A DNA stretch of 32,232 nt. Source: Tannerellaceae bacterium. Lineage in GTDB: Bacteria > Bacteroidota > Bacteroidia > Bacteroidales > Tannerellaceae. The notes under the pieces are model-generated. The model was given only the letters and a program-made list of their open reading frames with translations. It made no database searches and had not been told where the DNA came from. Every line of letters begins with the position of its first letter. The stretch's first letter is position 1. The position numbers and the translations under genes are program-made. Positions 631-8,108 of the stretch are shown in pieces. Location of the stretch: the NCBI GenBank assembly GCA_031284375.1, contig JAISZY010000204.1, forward strand, positions 1 to 32,232, written 5' to 3'.

Positions 631-2784
631 ATGAAAAAATGGTTTGCCCTATGGACATTGTCCGTTATCACCCCCGGCCTCTATGCCGACGAAGGTATGT
701 GGATGCTTCCTTTGCTGAAGCAACAACGATTCTCCGAGATGCAAGCCCTGGGATTAAAACTCCAGGATTACCACATCTATCACCCCGATTCGTCTTCCCT
801 GAAAGACGCCGTAGTTATTTTCGACGGCGGATGCACCGGCGAAATCATCTCGTCCGACGGATTAGTACTCACCAACCATCACTGCGGATACAGCCGGATA
901 CAACAACACAGCTCGCCCGAACACGATTACCTGACCAACGGCTATTGGGCTACAACGCGCAAAGAAGAATTGCCTAATCCGGGACTGAGCGTCACCTTTA
1001 TCGAAAAAATAGAAGACGTAACCGAATACGTGCTCTCACGCCTCGAAAAAGACGACGACCCTACGGGCATGAACTTTCTCTCCGCCACATACCTGAACGC
1101 GCTGGCAGCAGAAAAACTTGGCCGGCAATTCCTCCGCGAGCATCCCGGCACGGAAGTAGAAATCAGAGCCTTCTATGGAGGAAACCAATACTATATGTTC
1201 ACCAAAAAACGATACGCCGACGTCCGGCTGGTAGGAGCGCCGCCCTCGTCGGTCGGAAAGTTCGGCGCCGATACGGACAACTGGATGTGGCCCCGTCATA
1301 CGGGCGACTTCTCGCTCTTCCGCGTCTATGCCGACGCCAACGGCAACCCGGCCGAATATTCCGAAACCAACCTCCCCCTTCGCCCCAAACGCTGGCTCCG
1401 CATCTCAACGCGAGGCATAGAAGAAAACGATTTCGCCATGATGATAGGCTTTCCCGCACGCACAAACAAATACTACACCTCGTGGGAAGTGGCCGAACGA
1501 CGCGACATAGACAACGCCATACGCATCCATATCCGTAACCTCCGACAGCAAATCATGCTCGAAGAAATGCTGAAAGACCCCGCCCTGCGCATCCGCTACG
1601 CCAACAAATACGCCTCCTCGACCAATGCCCACAAAAACGCGGAAGGCTCATCCTGGGCTATCAACAACCGCAACCTGGAACAGGTAAAGCAAGCCGAACA
1701 AGACCGCCTGATTGCCTGGGCCAAACAAACAAACAAGCCGGACTATCCCGATGCCCTGCGGATGATGGAACAAATCGTGACAGACAGGAAGAGCCTACGC
1801 TATCGGAGCGTGTTACTCGACGAAGCCCTGCTGCGCGGAATAGAATTTACCGGCATACCCGTCGATATTCAGCCCGTGGTCGATGCGCTGAAAGGGAACG
1901 ATAAACAAAAACGGCAAGAACAAATCCGATTGCTCGCCATGGCATACCGTCGCTTTTTCAACGCCAATTATTCGCCCCAATTGGACAAGAAAATAGCCAA
2001 GGTAATGCTGAAGGAATATCGCCGCCTGGCCGCTGCGTACCACCAGCCGGCTTATTTCGCCGTGATCGACAAGAAATTCAAAGGCAACACCGATCGCTTT
2101 GTAAACTATCTTTTCGAAAACTCTATCTACGGAAAGTCCGAAAACTTCAGCGCCTTCCTCGAACGCCCTTCGGCCCAAGCCCTCGAAAAAGACCCGATGA
2201 TTCTCTTCGCCCAAGCCGTACAAAACGAACGGAAAGCCATCGCTTCGGCCTTGAACGAGTTCGACGTCGCCTTGGCATCCGAACATCGCAACTACGTAAA
2301 AGGTTTGTTGGAAATGCAAGACGGAGCGCATTTCCCCGACGCCAATTCAACCATCCGCCTCACCTACGGACAGAAGAAAGGATACGCCCCGCGCGATGCC
2401 GTTTATTACGAAAGTCAGACTACACTCCACGGCGTGATGGAAAAAGAAGACCCCAACAACTGGGAATTTGTCGTACCCCCACGTCTGAAAGAACTGTACG
2501 AAGCGCAGGATTTCGGCCCTTACCGGATGTCCAACGGAAAGATGCCCGTAGCCTTCACCCTCAACACGCATACAACGGGCGGAAACTCCGGCAGCCCCGT
2601 ACTGAACGCAACCGGCGAACTGATAGGCATCAACTTCGACCGTAATTGGGAAGGCGTAGGAGGCGACATCCAATACCTGCCCGACTATCAGCGAAGCATC
2701 ATCGTAGACATCCGCTACGTTCTCTTCCTTATCGACAAATACGCCGGCGCCGGCTATCTGCTAAAAGAAATGGAGATAGAATAA
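631..2784 (+). CDS. dpp11: S46-family dipeptidyl-peptidase, DPP11-type (Asp/Glu-specific)
   Basis: A 717-residue secreted serine exopeptidase that removes N-terminal dipeptides from oligopeptides in the periplasm. An N-terminal signal peptide probably ends near YA-DEG (residue 19/20). The chymotrypsin-like triad is visible: His84 in TNHHCGY, Asp226 in RHTGDF and Ser653 in GGNSGSP. In the S46 family the residue 18 positions after the catalytic Ser sets specificity: Gly in DPP7 (hydrophobic P1) and Arg in DPP11 (Arg673 in P. gingivalis numbering). Here it is Arg671 in NFDRNWEGVGG, which points to cleavage after Asp or Glu. The length is normal for the family (about 710-720) and the gene appears intact. 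Such peptidases feed the amino-acid fermentation of asaccharolytic Bacteroidales. The gene starts 18 bases after the CYTH stop. Confidence 0.93.
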   Translation: MKKWFALWTLSVITPGLYADEGMWMLPLLKQQRFSEMQALGLKLQDYHIYHPDSSSLKDAVVIFDGGCTGEIISSDGLVLTNHHCGYSRIQQHSSPEHDYLTNGYWATTRKEELPNPGLSVTFIEKIEDVTEYVLSRLEKDDDPTGMNFLSATYLNALAAEKLGRQFLREHPGTEVEIRAFYGGNQYYMFTKKRYADVRLVGAPPSSVGKFGADTDNWMWPRHTGDFSLFRVYADANGNPAEYSETNLPLRPKRWLRISTRGIEENDFAMMIGFPARTNKYYTSWEVAERRDIDNAIRIHIRNLRQQIMLEEMLKDPALRIRYANKYASSTNAHKNAEGSSWAINNRNLEQVKQAEQDRLIAWAKQTNKPDYPDALRMMEQIVTDRKSLRYRSVLLDEALLRGIEFTGIPVDIQPVVDALKGNDKQKRQEQIRLLAMAYRRFFNANYSPQLDKKIAKVMLKEYRRLAAAYHQPAYFAVIDKKFKGNTDRFVNYLFENSIYGKSENFSAFLERPSAQALEKDPMILFAQAVQNERKAIASALNEFDVALASEHRNYVKGLLEMQDGAHFPDANSTIRLTYGQKKGYAPRDAVYYESQTTLHGVMEKEDPNNWEFVVPPRLKELYEAQDFGPYRMSNGKMPVAFTLNTHTTGGNSGSPVLNATGELIGINFDRNWEGVGGDIQYLPDYQRSIIVDIRYVLFLIDKYAGAGYLLKEMEIE

Positions 2785-2808
2785 GGAATACTCAAAATAT
2801 CCACTACG

Positions 2809-2932
2809 CCTGGATTGCTTCACCCTTCGGGTTCGCAATGACGTGCCCCCGCCACCTCCGTCCTTGCGAACCCGGAGGGTGAAGCAAGCCAGCGCTGCCC
2901 CGTCATTGCGAACAGGGTGAAGCAATCCAGGG
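2809..2932. repeat. Cluster of three palindromic intergenic repeat units
   Basis: Three related units of about 32-35 bases fill the gap after the peptidase gene. Unit 1 (2809-2843) runs as CCTGGATTGCTTCACCC...TTCGCAATGACG. Units 2 (2860-2894) and 3 (2901-2932) are in the opposite orientation, with TTGCGAA...GGGTGAAGCAAGCC and CATTGCGAA...GGGTGAAGCAATCC. Units 1 and 3 are therefore inverted copies able to form a long hairpin. The core resembles the CATTGCGA...GAAGCAATCC repeats scattered through many bacterial genomes. The ORF-track start at 2917 falls inside unit 3 and is not the real start of the next gene. Confidence 0.75.
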
Positions 2933-2976
2933 AACCTTATAACAACCATAGTTTACTTACACATAAAATTATTTTT

Positions 2977-3423
2977 ATGAGAACACATTCCATTTATTTC
3001 ATCCTTCTCTTCGCCCTCTTATCCTTAGGAGGATGTGCAGATAAGAACAGCGAAGAAGAAGAAAATATTGAGGGTATATTAGAACCCTCTCAACGCATCC
3101 TGGGGCAATGGCAAGAAATTGCCTGCGGAAACGAATATAATCCCGAACTCCCCCCCACCTCTCAGACCATTGAGTTCTTTTCCGGCGGAACGTATTACGG
3201 CGCCTATGGCTTCCATAACGGCTGGAATGTTGGCAAGGCTGATTACCAAATAGCATCCGATTCATTGATTTTGTCCCGAGAAGGCAGCCGTATACATATT
3301 TACCGGTACATTTTTATCGGCAAAAAACAACTTCTGGTAGATCACATCTATGGCGATGTGCCATACGTAATGACTATACCTAAATATCATATTTTCGAAC
3401 GAATAAACACCCAAAAACCATGA
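2977..3423 (+). CDS. Lipocalin-like lipoprotein, paralogue 1
   Basis: A 148-residue predicted lipoprotein. The ATG at 2977 is chosen over 2917 because it directly gives a signal peptide with lipobox LGGC (Cys at residue 20) and because 2917 lies in a dispersed repeat. After an acidic linker (NSEEEENIE) comes GQWQEIACGNEYNPELPP, then IEFFSGGTYYG and a C-terminal strand ending YHIFERI. The same scheme, G-W-EIA-GN-PEL ... IEF-T ... I-KRI, recurs in the genes at 4364 and 4822, so the three are paralogues. The pattern resembles small Bacteroidetes lipocalin-like lipoproteins, probably a beta-barrel binding domain at the outer membrane; the ligand is unknown. Its stop overlaps the next start (ATGA), which suggests translational coupling. 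The family call is by pattern only. Confidence 0.75.
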   Translation: MRTHSIYFILLFALLSLGGCADKNSEEEENIEGILEPSQRILGQWQEIACGNEYNPELPPTSQTIEFFSGGTYYGAYGFHNGWNVGKADYQIASDSLILSREGSRIHIYRYIFIGKKQLLVDHIYGDVPYVMTIPKYHIFERINTQKP

Positions 3424-4343
3424 AACAGCTTATTTGTATTTTCCTTGCGCTTTTAAGCAGCGGCATCGCAGTTTCCGCACAAGTGTATAGCTACTATTAT
3501 GATAGCAGGGATGCATTTTGCAAGTTTCCGCAGTTGAAACCGGTTTACGACCGTGCATTTATAAAATCCATGCCTTCTTTCAATGTAGACAGCCTGCTGG
3601 AAGAAGACAGAAAACAGGAAGAAGGAGGCCTCTGGAAGGGACCCTTCCGCTTTGGATACGCTTTTGATGTGGATTACACGCTAAACGACGGGCAATGGAC
3701 GGTAGAAGAAGACAAACGCATCTGGCGCCTGCGTTTCTATTCCAAAGGAGCTTATTCCCTCAATTTTGTTTTTTCCGAAATGAACCTGTCGCCGGACGCC
3801 GAACTATACATCTTCAGTACGTATGGATATATGGTCTATGGGCCGGTAACGCAATACCAAATCCTTACAACGGGGAATTTCCTGTCCGATTTGCTGATAG
3901 GAGACGATGTAGTGATTCAATTAATAGAGTCTGCCGCTACGAAAGAGGAATCGAAGTTGAGAATTTCGCGCGTGGTTCATGGCTACCACAACACGTATGA
4001 GGGAAGGTATTCTCCACCGGATACTCCGCCATCCACCACCCCATGTATAAGTTCCTATTCCGATATCCTCACAATGAAAAACCCCATAACAAGCAACAGT
4101 TACACGGTTGTTTCGGGAACAAACAAGCAGGTTACGGTTTCTTTTCCCTACGATGAAAACACCGTACCGGTAAACCGGACCATCGCCTGGTCGCTATACA
4201 ATTCTTCCGGCGCATTGGCAGCAAGCGGACGTATCGCGGCGCAAGGCGGAACGCTGAACTTCGGCAACCTGCCAAGCGGCATCTATGTGCTTTCGCTCGA
4301 CACGGAAGCCACCCCGTATACCCACAAGATTGTTCTGAAATAA
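3420..4343 (+). CDS. T9SS-exported protein: protease-type prodomain joined to a sorting domain, catalytic domain absent
   Basis: A 307-residue secreted protein of unknown function. Residues 1-20 are a signal peptide (ending VSAQ). Residues of about 30-185 resemble the N-terminal prodomain of secreted Bacteroidetes serine endopeptidases of the lysyl-endopeptidase type: IWRLRFYSKGAYSLNFVFSE, LSPDAELYIFSTYGYMVYGP, then LIGDDVVIQLIES and KLRISRVVHGY. A Pro/Thr linker (YSPPDTPPSTTP) follows. The last 80 or so residues form a type IX sorting domain (SLYNSSGALAASGRIA, LPSGIYVLSLDT, THKIVLK). No His/Asp/Ser protease core lies between prodomain and tail, so it is either a decayed protease or a stand-alone inhibitor- or chaperone-like module. 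It overlaps the upstream lipoprotein by 4 bases and is followed by two lipoprotein paralogues. The prodomain match is from memory of the family pattern. Confidence 0.75.
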   Translation: MKQLICIFLALLSSGIAVSAQVYSYYYDSRDAFCKFPQLKPVYDRAFIKSMPSFNVDSLLEEDRKQEEGGLWKGPFRFGYAFDVDYTLNDGQWTVEEDKRIWRLRFYSKGAYSLNFVFSEMNLSPDAELYIFSTYGYMVYGPVTQYQILTTGNFLSDLLIGDDVVIQLIESAATKEESKLRISRVVHGYHNTYEGRYSPPDTPPSTTPCISSYSDILTMKNPITSNSYTVVSGTNKQVTVSFPYDENTVPVNRTIAWSLYNSSGALAASGRIAAQGGTLNFGNLPSGIYVLSLDTEATPYTHKIVLK

Positions 4344-4363
4344 AAACACAACACGATCCGATT

Positions 4364-4795
4364 ATGCAACTAAAAACATTTTCCATAATTCCTATTTTCT
4401 TCGCCCTCTCATACTTGAGCGAATGTGGAGACTACTACAACATAGAACCCACTGCGAAAACTATCCTGGGGAAATGGCAAGAGATTGCCCGCGGAAACGA
4501 TTGGTATCCCGAACTCGAACCCGATGGACACATCATTGAATTTCTACCCGACGGAACAATGCCCGAAGGAACTTATCACAGTGGCTCTTTCACCCTCAGT
4601 CTGATTGGAATCCGAACGTCAAGCTACCAGATAGACGAAGAGTTTGTGTATCTGAACAGCGGCAAGCCGCTGATAGGGTATACCTACCAATACAGCTTTA
4701 GCGGAACAGATACGCTCCGGATGGATCTTATCTCCGGTGTGAGGACATTTTCCATGGGAACCCCTCTTTTTAATATCTACAAACGAGTAAAATAA
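4364..4795 (+). CDS. Lipocalin-like protein, paralogue 2 (atypical lipobox)
   Basis: 143 residues, starting 20 bases after the T9SS protein. The core GKWQEIARGNDWYPELEPDG-HIIEFLPDG and the ending TPLFNIYKRVK make it a close paralogue of the genes at 2977 and especially 4822. The two later copies also share near-identical DNA at their ends (CTCTTTTTAATATCTACAAACGA) and in the core, which indicates recent tandem duplication. The signal sequence ends LSECGD: a Glu stands at position -1 where Gly, Ala or Ser is expected before the lipid-modified Cys, so lipidation may be impaired. Its role is unknown; by family it would be a small beta-barrel protein of the periplasm or outer membrane. It carries an extra segment (EGTYHSGSFTLSLIGIRT) relative to paralogue 3. 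Confidence 0.75.
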   Translation: MQLKTFSIIPIFFALSYLSECGDYYNIEPTAKTILGKWQEIARGNDWYPELEPDGHIIEFLPDGTMPEGTYHSGSFTLSLIGIRTSSYQIDEEFVYLNSGKPLIGYTYQYSFSGTDTLRMDLISGVRTFSMGTPLFNIYKRVK

Positions 4796-4821
4796 ATTCA
4801 CTCATAACACCCCACATCATT

Positions 4822-5244
4822 ATGCAACTTAAAACAATTTATCTAATCCTTGCCCTCGCCCTCTTGGTTCCAACAGGATGCGCAGACAATAACGAGGAAC
4901 AAGAAGTAACGATGGAAATCCGGGAACTCTTCCTGGGGAAATGGAAAGAAATCGCCCGCGGAAATGATCTACATCCCAAACTCGAACCCGATGGACACAT
5001 CATTGAATTTCTGCCGGACGACACCTATCATGCTTATTTCGACAATGGAGAAGTTTCAACAAGCAGCTACCGGATAGATGCAGAATTTATGTACTACGAC
5101 GGCGGAACACCCCCCAGCGGATTTACTTACCGATACGGTTTCTCCGGCACAGACACGCTCCGGCTGGATTATGTGACCGGAAATCTAACCAAAATATCAT
5201 CTACCCCTCTTTTTAATATCTACAAACGAATAAACACCCCGTGA
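4822..5244 (+). CDS. Lipocalin-like lipoprotein, paralogue 3
   Basis: A 140-residue predicted lipoprotein with a normal lipobox (PTGC, Cys at residue 20) and an acidic tether (NNEEQE). The core is GKWKEIARGNDLHPKLEPDG, IIEFLPDDT, then SSYRIDAEFMYYDGG, GFSGTDTLRLDYV and TPLFNIYKRINTP. It is the last gene of the cluster 2977-5244 and lies 26 bases after paralogue 2, with a possible terminator just downstream. Paralogues 2 and 3 begin with almost the same sequence (MQLKT), including the untranslated bases before the start. The function is unknown; a lipocalin-like ligand-binding role is an inference from the general pattern. Confidence 0.77.
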   Translation: MQLKTIYLILALALLVPTGCADNNEEQEVTMEIRELFLGKWKEIARGNDLHPKLEPDGHIIEFLPDDTYHAYFDNGEVSTSSYRIDAEFMYYDGGTPPSGFTYRYGFSGTDTLRLDYVTGNLTKISSTPLFNIYKRINTP

Positions 5245-5267
5245 ACCATGAAACAAAACATCGCAGC

Positions 5268-5310
5268 CGGCCTTACCCCTTAAAAACGGCAAGGCCGACT
5301 GATTTTTGTT
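5268..5310 (+). terminator. Probable intrinsic terminator of the lipoprotein cluster
   Basis: An inverted repeat, CGGCCTT (5268-5274) and AAGGCCG (5291-5297), with a 16-base loop, is followed by a T-rich run (GATTTTTGTTT). It lies 23 bases after the last lipoprotein stop. The stem is only 7 bp, so efficiency is uncertain. Confidence 0.5.
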
Positions 5311-5324
5311 TAAGAATCATTCAC

Positions 5325-5610
5325 ATTCAACGCTTCGCACAAATTCTAAACCTTGATCAACGTTTCATTCAACGTTTCGCGCAAAATATATTTTACAAAA
5401 ATTTATATTCAACGCTTCGCGCAAATTCTAAACCTTGATCAACGTTACAATCAACGCTTCGCGCAAATTCTAAACCTTGATCAACGTTACAATCAAGGCT
5501 TCGCACAAATTCTAAACCTTGATCAACGTTTCATTCAAGGCTTCGCGCAAATTCTAAACCTTGATCAACGTTTCATTCAAGGCTTCGCGCAAATTCTAAA
5601 CCTTGGTCAA
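5325..5610 (+). repeat. 42-bp direct tandem repeat, about 7 copies
   Basis: Units start at 5325, 5367 (degenerate, 40 bp), 5407, 5449, 5491, 5533 and 5575 (truncated). The consensus runs ATTCAACGCTTCGCGCAAAT then TCTAAACCTTGATCAACGTT plus TC. Copies differ at a few sites (CGC/GGC, GCG/GCA, TTTCATT/TTACAAT). Because 42 is a multiple of 3, one frame stays open (IQRFAQILNLDQRF repeated), but the differences among copies change amino acids and there is no convincing start, so it is read as non-coding. There are no spacers, so it is not CRISPR. It sits between the terminator and the promoter of the next gene and fills most of the 468-base gap. Confidence 0.9.
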
Positions 5611-5631
5611 ATTTTTTTTTGAAAAAAACAG

Positions 5632-5661
5632 TTGCATATATTGTTTTTTTTCCCATATTTG
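5632..5661 (+). promoter_or_regulatory. Probable Bacteroidetes-type promoter
   Basis: TTG at 5632-5634 and CATATTTG at 5654-5661 are close matches to the Bacteroidetes -33 (TTTG) and -7 (TAnnTTTG) elements, with about 20 bases between them. The site is 52 bases before the ATG at 5713 in a T-rich stretch just past the tandem repeat. Confidence 0.45.
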
Positions 5662-5712
5662 TGCCCAATAGAAAAACATACCATTTATATATTCATCTAA
5701 AAAATAACGATC

Positions 5713-6903
5713 ATGCTGGAAATAATTATTCAACCCTCAGTGATGGGAAAATTGCGAAATGCCGAACATTTCGATATGCTCTTCAACGTTGTCCTCCACG
5801 TAAAAAGCAAAGGAGAACTGAAACCCGCCGCCCTTCTGACCTCTTGGAACGCCTTCGATCAAGCCTTCGACCACGAAGACAAAATCTACAAACGAGCTGC
5901 CAAACGCGAAGAAACAACCCTCATTAAAGCCGCCCACGAAAAACGAAAAAAATCCTATATGGGATTCAAATATCTGGTCGAAGCCGCCTCTTACGACGGA
6001 ACTCCTGCCTCGCAGGATGCCGCCAAACTGATCCTCTCCGTAATGGAAAACTATCACAGCGCCTATTATGCGCCCATGACGGAGGCCTCGGCCCTCTTCG
6101 TGAACCTTGTCCAAGACATGGAAAAAGAAAATCACGCCGACAAAGTGGCCCTCATCACCGGAGCAGCCGTAGCGCTGGCCAACCTCAAGGCAAACAACGA
6201 AGCCTTTATAACCCTCATGGCCGGACGTACCTTTGCCGAAGAAGAAGCCAAAGTGGAAGGCACCATGAGCGACGCCCGAAAACAAACAGACCAGAAATTC
6301 ACCCTCTTTGCCGAAGACGTGAACGCCTTCTACCGAACCAACGAAAGAGCAGCGACCAAAGACCCCGAAGTAAGCGCCCTGCTGGCCGACATCATCGTCT
6401 TTATCAACTCCTATATCCACAAATACGAAACAACCTATTCCCGCCGCAATGCCAAATATCACAGCGGCGGCAACAAACCCTCGCAACCCGACGAAGAACT
6501 CCCCGACGAACCGGCCCAACCCGCCATCCCGGAGTTCTCCATCAACGCCCAGGAAACATTGGGCAACAGCTCCGTCATCTCCGGCTACGGCACCCAGATG
6601 ACCCTCCGCGCTACCGACCCAGAGGCCTTTGCCGACGTACTCTACCCCGTAGCCCGCGGCGGTATCCTGAAGCTCGCCTATCCCGAAACGGAAAACGCAG
6701 AACTTTACCCCATAGCCGATTTCCTGTTCGACACCGACGGCACAACCCCCATCGGCCTCTTGGTAGACGCCCCGAACGCCTACACAGCCTTTGCCAAACC
6801 CTTCGTCGCCTCCGGCCCGGCAGAGACCCAGGTATTGAAAGACGACCAACTCTTAGCCATCCTCTTAGAGGTACAGTTCCCGGCTACAATGAGCGAAGGG
6901 TAA
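5713..6903 (+). CDS. DUF6261-like family protein
   Basis: 396 residues with no signal peptide or membrane segment. The first 250 or so residues are alpha-helical in character, with charged helices (VALITGAAVALANLKANNEA, FTLFAEDVNAFYRTNER) typical of the poorly characterised Bacteroidales DUF6261 family. A Pro-rich linker (SQPDEELPDEPAQPAIPE, about 256-273) separates this from a C-terminal part of about 120 residues (INAQETLGNSSVISGYG to the end), which looks like a beta-rich appended domain. The function is unknown. The assignment rests on remembered family appearance. The gene has its own likely promoter and ends 13 bases before the ATPase gene, so the two may be cotranscribed. The 370-aa antisense ORF over it is a codon-bias shadow. 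Confidence 0.7.
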   Translation: MLEIIIQPSVMGKLRNAEHFDMLFNVVLHVKSKGELKPAALLTSWNAFDQAFDHEDKIYKRAAKREETTLIKAAHEKRKKSYMGFKYLVEAASYDGTPASQDAAKLILSVMENYHSAYYAPMTEASALFVNLVQDMEKENHADKVALITGAAVALANLKANNEAFITLMAGRTFAEEEAKVEGTMSDARKQTDQKFTLFAEDVNAFYRTNERAATKDPEVSALLADIIVFINSYIHKYETTYSRRNAKYHSGGNKPSQPDEELPDEPAQPAIPEFSINAQETLGNSSVISGYGTQMTLRATDPEAFADVLYPVARGGILKLAYPETENAELYPIADFLFDTDGTTPIGLLVDAPNAYTAFAKPFVASGPAETQVLKDDQLLAILLEVQFPATMSEG

Positions 6904-6916
6904 TATCGTTCGCCAC

Positions 6917-8108
6917 ATGCAACAGATAGCGATAAAAAATTTCGGCCCTGTAAAAGAAGGGATTGTTCATATAAATAAAGCTACCGTATTAGTCGGCAAT
7001 CAAGGCTCCGGCAAAAGTACGGTAGCTAAACTTATCTCAACGTTTATCTGGATAGAAAAAGCCTTGGTACGCGGCGATTACGACAAAAAATGGTTTGAAA
7101 GTAAAAACAAACTGAAAAATCAATACCTCGCCTACCACCGCATAGAGAATTATCTTTACCCCGATACGGAAATCCAATATCAAGGTAGCGCTTATATCAT
7201 CCAATATCGGGAAGGAAGGATGTTGATAACAGAAACATCCGAAAATACATACCCGCTACCTCAAATTATGTATGTTCCGGCCGAAAGAAATTTTCTTTCC
7301 TACATAAAAGATGCCAAGGGATTCAAACTATCATCGGCCTCCTTGCGGGAGTACAATACCGAATATTTTAACGCCAAACAAGCCATGAAAGGCGCCATAC
7401 GGTTGCCCATTAACGATACGGATGTAGAATACAACAAACAATACGACAATCTGTATCTGAAAATTGCCCAGGATAAAAAAATAGAAATATCGGAAGCCTC
7501 CAGCGGTTTTCAATCGTTTGTTCCCTTGTATTTGGTATCGGATTATCTGGCCAATTCGGTAAAATCTCGCCCGGATAAGAAAGAAGCCATAAGTAGCGAG
7601 GAAGAAAATCGTTTCAAGAAAGGCGTACAGGCTATATGGGCAAACGAAACTTTAACCGACGAGCAAAGCCGCCTTGTCTGCAAGATTTACCAAAACGGCA
7701 TTTATCAATATTGTAGAAGAACCGGAACAAAACCTTTTCCCTACGTCTCAATGGAAAATGTTGCAAAGTTTGTTGGAATTTAACAAGATGAACAACGGCA
7801 ATAAACTGATTCTAACCACACACAGTCCGTATTTAATCAACTATTTAACCTTGGCCGTAAAGGCAGGGGAGTTAAAACAACAAATTAAAACAAACGCACA
7901 AAGAAACAGTTTGGAACGAATCGTACCGTCGGAAGCAACAATTGATGCAAAAGATTTATCCATATACGAATTGGACGAACAGCGCGGAAGTATTCAACCG
8001 CTTAAAACATACGAAGGACTCCCCTCGGATGAAAACCGGCTTAATAAGATGCTGGATGAAGGCAATGAATTGTTTGCTCAACTCATCGAAATTCAACAAC
8101 AGTTATGA
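6917..8108 (+). pseudogene. AAA/OLD-type ATPase, split by a frameshift
   Basis: Two ORF-track entries (6917-7783 and 7674-8108) are halves of one SMC/ABC-like ATPase of about 397 residues. The first half has an N-terminal strand (IAIKNFGPVKEG), Walker A GNQGSGKST near residue 30, an SSGFQS signature-like motif and ends sensibly near TDEQSRL. The second half, one base out of phase, supplies Walker B FINIVEEPEQNLFP and the switch-His motif LILTTHSPYLINYL. The break lies near 7660-7680; past it the first frame reads as nonsense (CKIYQNGIYQYCRRTG). No obvious slippery heptamer is seen. Intact relatives of this ATPase type often work with a downstream nuclease-type partner, but here the next gene is convergent rsmE, so a partner is missing. 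It looks more AT-rich than its neighbours. A sequencing error cannot be excluded. Confidence 0.85.

Follow-up and report, generated by a model that had tools for sequence, protein, structure and literature searches.

The DNA considered here, referred to as the window, is a stretch of 32,232 nucleotides from a Tannerellaceae bacterium (GenBank assembly GCA_031284375.1, contig JAISZY010000204.1). On its forward strand lie four closely packed ORFs: a potempin-like, lipocalin-type lipoprotein of 148 aa (lipoprotein 1, 2977..3423), a secreted protein of 307 aa (3420..4343) identified below as the remnant of a miropsin-like protease without its catalytic domain, and, downstream of it, two further potempin-like lipoproteins of 143 aa (lipoprotein 2, 4364..4795) and 140 aa (lipoprotein 3, 4822..5244). 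The stop of lipoprotein 1 and the start of the remnant gene overlap in the sequence ATGA (3420-3423), and by ORF coordinates gaps of 20 bases and 26 bases separate the remnant from lipoprotein 2 and lipoprotein 2 from lipoprotein 3. An earlier interpretation of this region, made from the DNA letters by themselves (the sequence-only reading), had described three paralogous small lipoproteins flanking a secreted protein in an operon-like arrangement; the ORFs and their packing are as it described, the lipoproteins showing 34-55% pairwise identity.

The order lipoprotein-protease-lipoprotein-lipoprotein recurs at one related locus, L086, whose contig stops inside the last gene. Genes outside the cassette are not alike in the window, in L086 and in a further relative, L084, which argues that the cassette occupies no single fixed site. 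Immediately 5' of it in the window, at 2813-2930, is a REP-like inverted-repeat element, ATTGCTTCACCCTTCGGGTTCGCAATGACG, with only a chance-level match in Rfam; between lipoprotein 3 and a DUF6261 gene, a 42-base unit is repeated in tandem in 6.9 copies (5323-5610). Further downstream, an AAA_15-type ATPase gene (6917-8108) is seemingly split by a frameshift, the N-terminal part occupying 6917-7783 and the C-terminal part of the domain 7674-8108. Acido-Lenti-1 RNA, reported 3' of miropsin and karilysin (PMC13298647), was looked for in 2401-6000 of the window and not found. The source assembly (3.17 Mb, 271 contigs, 84% complete) contains ten matches to the sorting-domain model TIGR04183 above its cut-off, together with PorV, from which a type IX secretion system (T9SS) is very probably in use.

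The 307-aa protein is composed of two recognizable parts and a short linker. Its signal-peptide-like start and prodomain (residues 1-194; 3420..4001) share 53-68% identity with the prodomains of full-length S1 proteases within the genus (67-68% with one of them, P0001), about 42-52% with those in other genera of the family, and 40-42% with a protease of Tannerella forsythia (L102/L079). Residues 205-307 (4032..4340) correspond to the end of a C-terminal extension followed by a T9SS type A sorting domain (its TIGR04183 score of 30.7 bits exceeds the cut-off of 23), with the terminus THKIVLK, hence KIVLK rather than KLIKK. Between these parts, at 4002..4031, about 10 new residues (GRYSPPDTPP) take the place of some 384 residues of the relative: in P0001, which is 676 residues long, the remnant is matched by residues 1-191 and by about 575-676, and the tail alignment begins at a point common to three intact relatives, where the window reads STTPC and the others STSSC (residue 575 in L084, 602 in L086, 587 in L087). 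Missing from the remnant are most of an extension read as Ig-like and the entire S1 catalytic domain, with the His, Asp and Ser residues that L084, L086 and L087 possess; the deletion is in-frame, with zero stops across the 307 codons. The suggestion of the sequence-only reading that an orphan prodomain of lysyl-endopeptidase type is fused directly to a sorting domain is borne out, the N-terminus being clearly a protease prodomain. Its core is predicted with confidence by AF2 (pLDDT about 90), while a profile of prodomains found no relative in the PDB and searching known folds with a model of the whole 307-aa protein was of no help (TM about 0.2).

Elsewhere in the same genome we found no catalytic domain of close kind, just a paralogue of 29% identity on contig C52. 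Contig C154 carries a sorting-domain ORF of 105 aa, which was considered as a second case and set aside as a contig-end fragment. On that contig (L162, 3767-4999, minus strand) the sequence ends within the sorting domain, and next to it comes a lipoprotein containing two lipocalin-like stretches; the pair may be a second cassette. Across the order, matches to the prodomain occur nearly always in open frames of >500 aa, the shorter ones lying mostly near contig ends.

The intact forms are well represented. Genomes of the same genus encode full-length homologues of about 676-707 aa, consisting of prodomain, S1 catalytic domain, Ig-like extension and sorting domain, in which the motifs LTAYHC, TDF and GGSSG supply the His, Asp and Ser. 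Immediately 5' of the protease gene these relatives have a lipoprotein gene of the window's kind. P0001 has a Pfam Trypsin_2 match and resembles Achromobacter protease I (E 7e-30) and the lysyl endopeptidase of Lysobacter (E 1e-29), marking the catalytic domain of the window's intact relatives as homologous to those S1D enzymes. A scan of named genomes placed the nearest relatives in Tannerellaceae metagenome-assembled genomes (MAGs), which from their isolate names we take to be termite-gut-derived. In a prodomain tree the window falls inside a six-sequence Tannerellaceae group (support 100/99), and since the other five members retain the catalytic domain, its loss in the window is a derived state. 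These alignments show that a secreted, miropsin-like S1 protease of lysyl-endopeptidase type gave rise to the 307-aa protein through in-frame loss of the catalytic domain, in keeping with the decayed protease locus that the sequence-only reading had offered as one possibility. In the same tree, the protease in a MAG record labelled Ruminococcus flavefaciens (L110) groups, fully supported, with a sequence from an uncultured member of Bacteroidales; its contig or label is probably wrong.

Scans against Pfam and NCBIfam returned nothing significant for the lipoproteins, and no further close copy was found in their own 3.17 Mb assembly. Lipobox-like cysteines occur in each, as LGGC in lipoprotein 1, LSEC in lipoprotein 2 and PTGC in lipoprotein 3; LGGC and PTGC are plausible, whereas the atypical LSEC, with E at -1, leaves lipidation of lipoprotein 2 unsure. 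A family profile of 18 members placed Potempin E (PotE) first among PDB entries, with E values of 6e-10 for the full chain and 3e-6 for the mature chain, the latter showing that the match does not come from the signal peptide alone; the lipocalin Bos d 2 followed in the same search at 5e-5, about tenfold worse than mature PotE. On iteration a profile moved away from the lipocalin type and took in other lipoproteins, probably via their common signal peptide, and homology claims are for this reason drawn from the A1 and A3 profiles only. On this basis the window lipoproteins are, by profile comparison, remote but detectable relatives of PotE. Potempins adopt either an OB fold or an eight-stranded up-and-down barrel, and the AF2 model of lipoprotein 3 (pLDDT 86) predicts an N-terminal helix and an eight-stranded barrel. 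Foldseek matched this model best to uncharacterised Bacteroides lipocalin-like barrel proteins, PotE being absent from the top 50. Two such proteins, 4gzv and 4i95, share the predicted barrel and helix but are not among the matches of the sequence-profile search; we know of no link between them and proteases. A hint of BSAP-5i immunity was dismissed (E 0.02; it scored 14.9 bits where 150 are required).

The position of these lipoproteins beside proteases was compared across loci. A lipoprotein gene lies directly upstream of 28 of 32 close, miropsin-like homologues and of 3 of 35 distant lysyl endopeptidases; the Fisher p value of 2e-11 is a guide only, because a simple, ad hoc lipobox rule was used to call lipoproteins and loci that are related do not count as independent; among the 28, L145 is a doubtful case. 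Of the four exceptions, L090 and L092 have a lipoprotein of the window type downstream, and L098 has masked bases at that place. Lipoprotein and protease genes overlap, as in the window, in L084, L088, L093 and L108. The sequence-only reading would have been refuted had the neighbours never been kept together in another genome; they are kept together in others, and the window lipoproteins belong to a family normally located directly upstream of the intact protease. Two types of lipoprotein alternate at this place: the IGKWQEIARGN type of the window, and a FKFCLLNEQGEPATVFNEGENF type, which is the one beside miropsin-2 in T. forsythia. Members of the latter stand upstream of proteases in L091, L093, L094, L096-L098, L100-L107, L112, L115 and L129; no Pfam match was seen in the two members scanned, and no significant PDB relative for the one member searched. 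They are a candidate second inhibitor family beside miropsin-like proteases. Miropsin-like proteases with an adjoining lipoprotein extend from termite-gut-type Tannerellaceae to Bacteroides sp. 214 and to MAGs of Prevotellaceae and Prolixibacteraceae.

Several loci contain lipoproteins of more elaborate form. In L088 a fused lipoprotein (490-1665) with three lipocalin-type domains lies 5' of the protease; in L166 (2790-4379, minus strand) apparently about four related domains are joined in one lipoprotein, 5' of a protease interrupted by a stop; and in Bacteroides sp. 214 (L108, 6095-11658) about seven paralogous lipocalin-type lipoproteins surround a miropsin-like protease.

The closest known system, which the sequence-only reading missed, is found in Tannerella forsythia, with its KLIKK proteases and their potempins. 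Every KLIKK protease gene in that species has a small lipoprotein ORF in front of it, and latency imposed by the profragments has been proposed (PMC4404884); the potempins were described, as data to be published, as specific inhibitors of the co-expressed protease (PMC7296668). In strain ATCC 43037, the KLIKK protease adjoining karilysin (L102) belongs to the same protease family as the window's relatives, and a lipoprotein gene lies 1 base upstream of it. The identity of this locus is fixed by the gene 5' of karilysin, which is PotA (8b2m), and we take its protease to be miropsin-2 because the locus number adjoins that of karilysin (PMC4404884; BFO_2679, BFO_2683). Likeness between the two loci extends to the S1 family, the profragment, the C-terminal extension, the T9SS domain and the lipoprotein gene directly upstream. 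The window differs in having no catalytic domain and little of the extension, in its KIVLK end, in having three lipoproteins distributed on both sides, and in placing PotE-type lipoproteins beside a miropsin-type protease, miropsin-2 itself being accompanied by the other lipoprotein type. The genetic partner of PotE is reportedly forsilysin, a metalloprotease rather than a miropsin; in T. forsythia, potE is said to precede the forsilysin gene.

Loss of the enzyme is not confined to the window and has recurred independently. In L112 the prodomain continues, out of frame, into the final codons of a KLIKK-like tail beside an intact lipoprotein; in L115 the protease is truncated and the lipoprotein intact; and in L113 the protease is frame-broken. 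Stops interrupt the proteases of L094 and L090/L071, and frameshifts those of L085 and L088; where a single base is involved, sequencing error could be responsible. A recoded codon was judged a less likely cause, TAA, TAG and TGA all being among the in-frame stops, which makes ordinary nonsense mutations likelier. In the converse case, L107, a seemingly shortened lipoprotein accompanies an intact protease. Among the copies examined, the window's is the only catalytic-less one in which the prodomain still shares a reading frame with the sorting domain.

We consider it probable that the locus is an inhibitor-protease cassette of the potempin/KLIKK type that no longer has its enzyme and retains orphan inhibitors along with a prodomain that is probably inert, perhaps reused. 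By analogy with potempins, we infer that the lipoproteins are protease inhibitors: anchored in the outer membrane, these lipocalin-fold proteins would have capped the mature cognate S1 protease at the cell surface and so protected the producing cell, in the manner of potempins. Once the enzyme was deleted, they may have persisted as an envelope guard against proteases of relatives, paralogues or host, a form of orphan immunity, or too little time may have passed for their loss. If the remnant is produced, the T9SS would carry it to the outside, where it would be displayed or set free as a prodomain with no enzymatic activity; lacking a catalytic domain it cannot cut, and it is most likely an inert relic. 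Protease inhibition, at which the sequence-only reading had guessed for this locus, accordingly keeps its place for the lipoproteins, by homology only, and loses it for the prodomain protein.

The inhibitor interpretation has to contend with the remoteness of the PotE homology, with the metalloprotease reported as PotE's genetic partner and with the generic Bacteroides proteins at the top of the Foldseek matches. Those matches, and Bos d 2 in the profile search, would suit ordinary lipocalin-like surface lipoproteins of ligand-binding or structural role, beside a protease by coincidence. We regard this as distinctly improbable, given the concentration of adjacency in the miropsin-like clade, often with ATGA overlap, the rank of PotE as best PDB match, and the exchange of unrelated lipoprotein types, including that of T. 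forsythia miropsin-2, at the same place. More improbable still is that the deletion is an artefact and the true gene intact: the assembly is fragmented and incomplete, and KLIKK genes are suspected of poor assembly in MAGs (PMC13298647), but the junction keeps frame with a linker absent from aligned homologues, blastn finds no repeat linking the two deletion edges, and the contig is 32 kb long, with no catalytic fragment of close kind found elsewhere in the assembly.

The relic interpretation faces a remnant that is not obviously decaying. It retains 31 of 35 otherwise invariant prodomain positions; under neutral drift at 0.1 substitutions per site it would remain stop-free with a probability of about 0.03; and pairwise dN/dS is about 0.2, of purifying type (0.17-0.23 for the prodomain against L084, resembling 0.14-0.22 for L084 against L088), although synonymous sites are near saturation and the average includes the period before the deletion, so that a recent deletion would give like figures. 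Such conservation, with the in-frame junction that preserves signal peptide, prodomain and sorting domain, would fit a remnant reused, through display by the T9SS, to act in trans on relatives' homologous proteases, whether as inhibitor, as decoy or as folding partner, alongside the retained lipoprotein inhibitors. We think this unlikely. The window's end branch (0.34) is about threefold that of its sisters L084 and L088 (0.11-0.12), though intact L087 has one equally long (0.40), and damage is plain in the other copies that have no catalytic domain (L112, L113, L115). Combining a displayed dead prodomain that acts in trans on competitors' homologous proteases with an expanded set of potempin-like inhibitors would make an all-defence cassette, a speculation to which we likewise give a small chance. 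A recent deletion and a reused product would look the same in these data.

The kind of system described here is already known. To our knowledge, the KLIKK/potempin system has been studied in a single oral bacterium. A pangenome paper of 2026 left the history and origin of the KLIKK protease genes to be investigated (PMC13298647). In the literature searched we did not find the in-frame catalytic-less form, a PotE-type lipoprotein beside a miropsin-type enzyme, or the wide spread in Bacteroidales. Our data place a miropsin-like protease with its adjoining lipoprotein across that order, with one protease family accompanied by differing lipoprotein types in the same adjacent place. The repeated loss of the enzyme with retention of the lipoprotein resembles the orphan immunity genes of toxin systems, and the window offers a natural catalytic-less case for asking whether such inhibitors may be kept as a defence against others.
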